Assembly (NCBI GenBank): GCA_003247225.1
Contig: QKAK01000024.1
Coordinates: 1 to 32,996, forward strand
Reading direction: 5' to 3'
DNA from: Spirochaetota bacterium
GTDB lineage: Bacteria > Spirochaetota > Spirochaetia > Treponematales > UBA12059
DNA: 32,996 nucleotides
Under the pieces are notes generated by a model. That model had not been told where the DNA came from and did no database searches. It saw only the letters and a program-made list of their open reading frames with translations. This document shows, piece after piece, positions 5,803-32,988 of this stretch; position 1 is the first letter of the stretch, and each line of letters begins with the position of its first letter. The position numbers were made by a program, and so were the translations under genes.

Positions 5803-5859
5803 GTAGCGCGCTAACGCTACGGTATTCCATATAGTATCGTGCGCGGAGGGCGATTCCAA
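5803..5859 (-). promoter_or_regulatory. Promoter and leader hairpin of the lipoprotein-cyclase operon
   Basis: On the minus strand TTGGAA (5859-5854) and TACTAT (5836-5831) are separated by 17 bases, a good sigma-70 match, giving a start near 5824. The leader contains an inverted repeat, GTAGCG (5803-5808) with CGCTAC (5815-5820), ahead of the ribosome-binding site. Confidence 0.55.
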
Positions 5860-5922
5860 CAGCCCCGATCCATAAGCGCTCGTAACGCCGGGCATCCATT
5901 CCCTTCGAGGCCTGAATTTGTG

Positions 5923-5934
5923 TACACTAATCGC
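5923..5934 (+). promoter_or_regulatory. -10 element for a possibly leaderless activator mRNA
   Basis: TACACT (5923-5928) lies six bases before the ATG at 5935. There is no Shine-Dalgarno sequence upstream of that ATG and no convincing -35 box. If this is the -10 element, transcription would begin at or next to the start codon. Confidence 0.35.
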
Positions 5935-7497
<1,563 letters not shown>

Positions 7498-8444: not shown

Positions 8445-8470
8445 CGTAGTATCAAGCCGTGGAGATCGCT

Positions 8471-10393
<1,923 letters not shown>

Positions 10394-10427: not shown

Positions 10428-10484
10428 GGAACAGTGTACCATAATAGAACAATCATATCCATTGATTCTATTCCATTTTGGAAC
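10428..10484 (+). promoter_or_regulatory. Candidate upstream activator sites for the aldehyde oxidoreductase operon
   Basis: This AT-rich region holds stacked inverted repeats: GGAACAGTGTACC (10428-10440, one mismatch from symmetry), TAGAACAAT (10445-10453) facing ATTGATTCTA (10461-10470), and the perfect TTCCATTTTGGAA (10471-10483). GAACA recurs in all three. They lie about 80-140 bases before the predicted sigma-54 start, the usual distance for enhancer-binding proteins. Binding by the adjacent activator is inferred. Confidence 0.5.
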
Positions 10485-10537
10485 ACCCATCGAATAACGC
10501 TATATCTATCTCGTTATCAAGAATATAATTACCATAC

Positions 10538-10556
10538 TTGGCACGCTCCCTGCTTA
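10538..10556 (+). promoter_or_regulatory. Sigma-54 (-24/-12) promoter of the aldehyde oxidoreductase operon
   Basis: TTGGCACGCTCCCTGCTTA contains the invariant GG (10540-10541) and GC (10552-10553) with exactly 10 bases between, in a near-consensus context. The predicted start is near 10565, about 27 bases before the ATG at 10592. The adjacent sigma-54 activator gene supports the call. Confidence 0.85.
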
Positions 10557-10591
10557 ATACTAAGCAACAAATCCTGAACGAGGGGGCAACC

Positions 10592-32444: not shown

Positions 32445-32888
32445 TTACGCGCGAGAGATCTGGACCGTCTTCTCCCTGGCCTCGGGGCGCTTGGGCATGG
32501 TGACCGACAGCAGTCCGTCCTTGAAGACGGCCTTGATGCCGTCCAGGTCCACGTCGCGCGGCATGCTGAACGAGCGGCGGAAGGTCCTGACGCCGCGCTC
32601 GCGGATCAGCCATACGCCGTCCCGCTCGGACTTCTTCTCCTCTTCCTTGGACGAGGCGATGGTCAGCACGCGGTCGTTCACCTTGATGTCCACGTCCTTC
32701 TCGGCGAAGCCCGGGAGCTCGGCCTCGAGCAGGTAGCGCTCCTTCTCCTCGCTGATGTCGACGGCGGGATAGCCCCTGGTGCCGGCGCTGTACTGGTAGT
32801 CGCGGCCGAAGAAGTCGCCGACCATCTTGTCCCAGTCGTCGAGGGCCGAAAGCACGGAAGCCGGATTGTAGGTGATGACGCTCTTCAT
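32445..32888 (-). CDS. hsp20: Hsp20/alpha-crystallin small heat-shock protein
   Basis: A 147-residue ATP-independent chaperone that binds unfolding proteins. The alpha-crystallin domain spans about residues 40-135, with 'VDISEEKERYLLEAELPGFAEKDVDIKV' at its start and the hallmark 'KDGLLSVTMPK' (the DGxLxV motif) near its end. 'FRRSFSMPRDVD' is the usual segment before that motif. The C-terminal VQI provides the V/I-x-I anchor used for oligomer assembly. GAGGAGG supports the ATG at 32888. It is monocistronic, ending at its own terminator. Upstream there is a sigma-54 promoter instead of a heat-shock sigma or CIRCE-type element, an unusual control for this family. Confidence 0.94.
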   Translation of the reverse strand: MKSVITYNPASVLSALDDWDKMVGDFFGRDYQYSAGTRGYPAVDISEEKERYLLEAELPGFAEKDVDIKVNDRVLTIASSKEEEKKSERDGVWLIRERGVRTFRRSFSMPRDVDLDGIKAVFKDGLLSVTMPKRPEAREKTVQISRA

Positions 32889-32969
32889 GATAAACCTCCT
32901 CGGAAGGTGTGGTATAAGGTATCGGCGCGGAGGGGCGACCTACGGTCGATCACCGCGTCCACCTACTAT

Positions 32970-32988
32970 TAAGCAAGAGTCGTGCCAA
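32970..32988 (-). promoter_or_regulatory. Sigma-54 (-24/-12) promoter of hsp20
   Basis: On the minus strand TTGGCACGACTCTTGCTTA has the invariant GG (32986-32985) and GC (32974-32973) with 10 bases between, essentially the consensus TTGGCACG-N4-TTGCT. The predicted start is near 32962, about 74 bases before the ATG. Any activator site would lie beyond the window edge. Confidence 0.85.

Follow-up and report, generated by a model that had tools for sequence, protein, structure and literature searches.

The small heat-shock gene hsp20 of this spirochaete appears to belong to a conserved sigma-54 regulon of its order and to be controlled by the mechanism proposed below, a reading to which we assign a probability of roughly 0.72. 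The gene lies in the stretch of 32,996 nucleotides analysed here (the window), which is the entire contig C94. Comparison among relatives brings out a sigma-54 promoter, a tandem enhancer upstream of it, a second target gene with the same layout and a hairpin in the predicted hsp20 leader. At the hsp20 locus the window contains the following features.

32967 to 32988, minus strand: predicted sigma-54 (-24/-12) promoter of hsp20, TTGGCACGACTCTTGCTTAATA, an exact match that is kept at the hsp20 loci of the order
32445 to 32888, minus strand: hsp20, encoding a small heat-shock protein of 147 amino acids, by match to PF00011
32895 to 32900, minus strand: ribosome-binding site AGGAGG of hsp20, from the sequence
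32924 to 32961, minus strand: hairpin in the 5' leader of the predicted hsp20 mRNA, from the predicted transcription start, with 11 pairs, by RNAalifold

The hsp20 product carries an HSP20 domain (85.3 bits against PF00011, cut-off 20.8), and its gene carries a predicted sigma-54 promoter, spelled TTGGCACG-ACTC-TTGC-TTAATA, in which the -24 GG and the -12 GC stand at the fixed spacing of such promoters (TTGGCACG-N4-TTGC). The site lies 100 bp from the hsp20 ATG (32888) on the same strand, and the objection that it might belong to a divergent arrangement fails, as the promoter reads into hsp20. When up to three mismatches were allowed, the only matches in the window were this promoter and that of an aldehyde oxidoreductase gene, compared with a chance expectation of 0.01. 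A sequence-only reading of the same DNA had already proposed the promoter and placed it at 32970-32988; the site is real, while these coordinates leave out the last three bases of the string that it quoted.

The strongest evidence for a working hsp20 promoter is its conservation throughout the order. Relatives of hsp20 are present in 56 of 59 genomes, mostly metagenome assemblies, and an upstream sigma-54 site scoring at least 12 of 15 was found at 48 of 50 hsp20 loci (14 or 15 at 36 of these; one of the 48, in G052, is doubtful because it has no GG), whereas shuffled upstream regions reached a score of 12 in only 39 of 2400 cases. The site is still conserved where the proteins share no more than 36-45% identity.

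A further element emerged from the regions upstream of these promoters. When spaced trinucleotide pairs were counted without bias in the hsp20 upstream regions, TGT-N11-ACA ranked first. This pair proved to belong to a 17-bp palindrome, TGTWTCA-N3-TGAWACA (bases were counted over 87 sites), which lies some 100-300 bp above the -24 box and often occurs in pairs, most of them clustering at 40-45 bp apart and a minority at 23 bp. At 30 of 47 hsp20 loci the best palindrome match had p<=0.05 against dinucleotide shuffles of the same region, giving a combined Fisher value of about 1e-25, a figure that is partly circular since the motif was derived from some of these loci, while the sigma-factor loci described below are independent of it. 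The same test was null in the coding region (0.99) and in DNA 400-720 bp upstream (0.97), neither of which contained pairs, and the exact pattern occurs at 21 sites in the 59 genomes compared with a single site for the reversed pattern. An upstream enhancer (UAS) within a few hundred bp, as belongs to sigma-54 control, was thus found at the hsp20 loci tested; no clear enhancer was seen in three promoter-bearing relatives (G037, G049 and G040). A further genus (G015, G022, G020) has tandem hsp20 genes that belong to another subtype, and these too come with a sigma-54 site and with enhancer-like pairs spaced by 41 bp.

Several exact palindrome matches have no good sigma-54 site within 420 bp. 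In G026, two exact palindromes stand 43 bp apart at each of two places (on its contigs C32 and C150) with no recognisable sigma-54 site within 420 bp. Another exact copy is found at the start of murG in G024, G055 and G027, in the first of these a few kb upstream of a kinase-regulator gene pair, and this murG-start palindrome reflects either chance or autoregulation.

The absence of the palindrome from the window itself is explained entirely by the contig end, which falls 8 bp above the -24 box of hsp20 and leaves everything above the promoter out of sight. However, a perfect copy, TGTTTCATTATGAAACA, is present at positions 6505-6521 of another contig of the same genome, C203, at 106 bp from the contig end. 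In G005, the DNA upstream of hsp20 matches the main blocks of C203 at 86-90%, the hsp20 block matches C94 at 93%, and the two lie about 260 bp apart on the G005 contig. On the strength of these alignments, C203 is very probably the missing upstream neighbour of C94, with the junction placed by synteny. The suggestion of the sequence-only reading that an enhancer-binding protein (EBP) controls hsp20 gains support from the order-wide promoter and the conserved tandem enhancer.

The same layout was found at a second gene. On contig C42 of the same genome the pair TGTTTCGAAACGATACA and CGTTTCATAACGACACA, 41 bp apart, lies above a sigma-54 promoter of a gene for a 288-aa sigma70-family factor. Relatives of this factor occur in 51 of the 59 genomes; a sigma-54 site lies about 40 bp before the start codon at 28 of 30 loci, and the enhancer test at 28 loci gave a Fisher value of 7e-17, with pairs at 40-41 bp. 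The predicted C42 product, which scores 274.6 bits against the RpoD model and 258.4 bits against the RpoS model (both below cut-off), is a group-2 sigma70-family factor whose gene has the enhancer pair and sigma-54 promoter arranged as at hsp20. When eleven other sigma-54-like sites of the genome were scanned, a pair of the hsp20 type was found only at this C42 site, and the palindrome therefore marks a subset of sigma-54 promoters.

The near-identity of the two promoters in the window, which had first drawn attention to hsp20, turned out to carry little meaning. The oxidoreductase region contains the following features.

10538 to 10559, plus strand: predicted sigma-54 promoter of the aldehyde oxidoreductase gene, the twin noted by the earlier reader, sharing its core with the hsp20 promoter though not its enhancer
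10435 to 10485, plus strand: probable enhancer pair of the oxidoreductase gene, TGTACCATAATAGAACA (10435) and TATTCCATTTTGGAACA (10469), each matching TGTWCCA-N3-TGGWACA at 13 of 14 positions
8459 to 10393, plus strand: EBP gene directly upstream of the oxidoreductase gene, best NCBIfam models DhaR and PrdR, below cut-off
5839 to 7497, plus strand: gene of a NorR-like EBP (NorR model 383.6 bits, cut-off 476)

The genome-wide scan for TTGGCACGN4YTGCTTAATA that had been suggested as a check returned two exact matches and three with one mismatch, and with up to three mismatches 10 matches compared with 2 for the reversed pattern. The five genome copies of the promoter 22-mer with no or one mismatch precede different genes, two of which encode sigma70-family factors. 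The likeness is that of the sigma-54 core with its A/T-rich tail and no private signature, and shared control of the two window promoters, as deduced from it, was rejected since the core recurs genome-wide and the enhancers differ. The oxidoreductase palindromes, known from this single genome, lie 103 and 69 bp above the -24 box and 34 bp from each other; they resemble the hsp20 palindrome in length and spacing but have a TCC instead of a TTC core, and the pair is probably the enhancer for the EBP encoded at 8459-10393. Elsewhere in the genome, a second sigma70-family factor gene (280 aa, C29:19991) has a sigma-54 promoter and lacks the hsp20-type enhancer, and sigma-54-like sites without this enhancer also precede genes for a ferritin-like protein (C119:27131) and a peroxiredoxin (C31:27671), functions that were judged from sequence only.

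Which protein acts on the hsp20 enhancer was approached through the distribution of EBPs, of which the genome has 14 clear ones. The sequence-only reading had suggested one of the two activators encoded in the window. These two do share a contig with hsp20, and the oxidoreductase sites have the length and spacing of the hsp20 palindrome, although with a TCC core. However, the NorR-like protein is patchy in relatives, with no full-length match in the nearest one, G005, whose hsp20 is 97% identical, and on this distribution it was rejected as the hsp20 activator. The other EBP gene immediately precedes the oxidoreductase gene, whose different enhancer the protein would fit, and it is not favoured for hsp20. 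Moreover, the proposed search for an activator gene neighbouring hsp20 found no EBP gene in the hsp20 regions of 20 relatives (10.8-19.9 kb each). Activation of hsp20 by either window EBP would, on this evidence, come as a considerable surprise.

Two EBPs of the genome are widespread: a GAF-AAA-HTH protein on contig C23 (C23:16843-18351) and a response regulator with REC-AAA-HTH architecture on C84 (approximately C84:89535-90887), the gene of which adjoins that of a PAS histidine kinase, so that kinase and activator genes stand side by side as in an Rrp2-type system. The regulon might operate as described with the GAF-type protein as its activator, given that 43 of 48 good genomes encode this protein and that its helix-turn-helix is conserved. 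However, it was not found in G045, where the response regulator is the sole EBP and hsp20 nevertheless has a sigma-54 site and two enhancer sites matching at 12 of 14 positions; as G045 is 94% complete, a second EBP could have been missed there. Likewise, G026, which is 99% complete, has the response regulator and no GAF-type protein, and its hsp20 gene has a weaker sigma-54 site (11 of 15) and a variant palindrome. Recovery of the response regulator succeeded in 11 genomes, among them all eight that are poor in EBPs. A PAS-type histidine kinase gene lies just upstream of the regulator in five of six genomes inspected (none was seen in G042), and in three of those five a block of murG, CvpA-like and polymerase-subunit genes precedes the kinase. 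These patterns of presence and absence make the GAF-type protein a rather unlikely activator and favour, with somewhat better than even odds, the C84 REC-AAA-HTH protein as the activator of hsp20. In the smallest genome of the order, G032 (1.1 Mb), neither hsp20 nor the sigma factor nor the GAF-type EBP finds a match, so the circuit seems to have disappeared along with its targets.

Between the promoter and the gene, the leader of the predicted mRNA forms a hairpin of two helices with the predicted mRNA start at its base. Among 12 family members, changes on both sides were found in all seven outer pairs and in two of the four inner ones, and the whole hairpin has 23 double-change cells, where shuffles gave 8.2 and sliding the partners gave no more than 9; the pairs behind these counts were picked by eye on the same alignment, and RNAalifold independently gave the same 11 pairs in two main helices. 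This hairpin may shield the 5' end or serve as the binding site of a factor. Most members of the genus also have a short ACCTT..GGAGGT pairing, which raises the further thought that the leader acts as an RNA thermometer as well, hiding the ribosome site when the temperature is low. However, a masking thermometer of the ROSE or fourU type was not supported: in 27 leaders the accessibility of the ribosome site was not below that of shuffled leaders (median p 0.67; p<=0.1 in three of the 27), the modelled accessibility was nearly constant from 15 to 50 C in most leaders, and about 25 nt separate the ribosome site from the covarying hairpin upstream of it. An Rfam search of the leaders gave no relevant match, and a thermometer at this position is quite improbable.

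It is also very improbable that hsp20 is transcribed mainly from another promoter, with the sigma-54 site playing a minor part. Two weak sigma-70-like matches are found just upstream of hsp20 in G005, but their score is only 9 of 12 and they run into the leader and the start region, whereas the sigma-54 site is conserved across the order. The window has no CIRCE element either, as a search for the HrcA/CIRCE operator TTAGCACTC-N9-GAGTGCTAA with up to three mismatches found no match in it.

In the mechanism that we propose, a response-regulator EBP would bind the tandem TGTWTCA-N3-TGAWACA sites about 100-300 bp upstream and loop to the sigma-54 RNA polymerase at the -24/-12 site of hsp20. The resulting mRNA would begin with its 5' end folded into the conserved hairpin, ahead of the ribosome site, and the same EBP would turn on the group-2 sigma70-family factor gene through the same kind of layout. 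The operation of this circuit in the cell, its signal and the identity of its activator are what we infer. In this scheme hsp20 would be a heat-shock gene apparently under an enhancer-binding protein and not under HrcA or a heat-shock sigma factor, and the order-wide sigma-54 stress circuit gains a concrete enhancer sequence, two conserved targets and a named candidate activator.

In the distant lineage of Escherichia coli, the small heat-shock gene ibpB has a sigma-54 promoter too, which operates alongside sigma-32. For spirochaetes, our literature search, outside most subscription journals, found no report of sigma-54 at an hsp20 gene and nothing that links small heat-shock genes to RpoN or to RNA thermometers. 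In Bacteroidota and Planctomycetota, heat-shock genes have been predicted to carry upstream sigma-54 promoters (PMC12316311); the passages of that paper on these promoters describe an enrichment in those two phyla, name Spirochaetia only with a COG0533 cluster and give neither enhancer nor activator. In Chlamydia trachomatis, heat shock raises the sigma-54 activator pair AtoS-AtoC, the hrcA-grpE operon has a sigma-54 promoter (PMC8762339), and the activator CtcC has no DNA-binding domain (PMC1976401). In contrast to the circuit described here, hsp20 is not among the reported AtoS-AtoC targets.

The closest working parallel is the HK2-Rrp2-RpoN-RpoS cascade of Borrelia burgdorferi. There, as here, the gene of a REC-AAA-HTH activator lies next to a histidine kinase gene, the Rrp2 gene being directly downstream of it (PMC1976401) and the kinase having a putative PAS domain (PMC7649798), and both systems have a sigma-54 promoter on an alternative sigma-factor gene (here at 28 of 30 loci). 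Gene adjacency is no more than a lead to a possible kinship of the two activators. Taken together, the enhancers of hsp20 and of the sigma-factor gene point to one stress circuit that would resemble the Borrelia cascade. The two differ in that hsp20 is a second target here and in that a conserved tandem enhancer is present, whereas the action of Rrp2 on rpoS needs no enhancer, and Rrp2 did not bind the 238 bp upstream of that gene (PMC1976401). If the activator is a relative of Rrp2, it would have a DNA site of a kind not found in Borrelia, and the evolution of the cascade would become directly testable. Tentatively, and at a little less than even odds, the order might keep an enhancer-dependent, possibly older form of the HK2-Rrp2-RpoN-sigma cascade, in which a response regulator at tandem sites drives both a sigma factor and hsp20, and from which the enhancer-independent version of the Lyme spirochaete would be derived.
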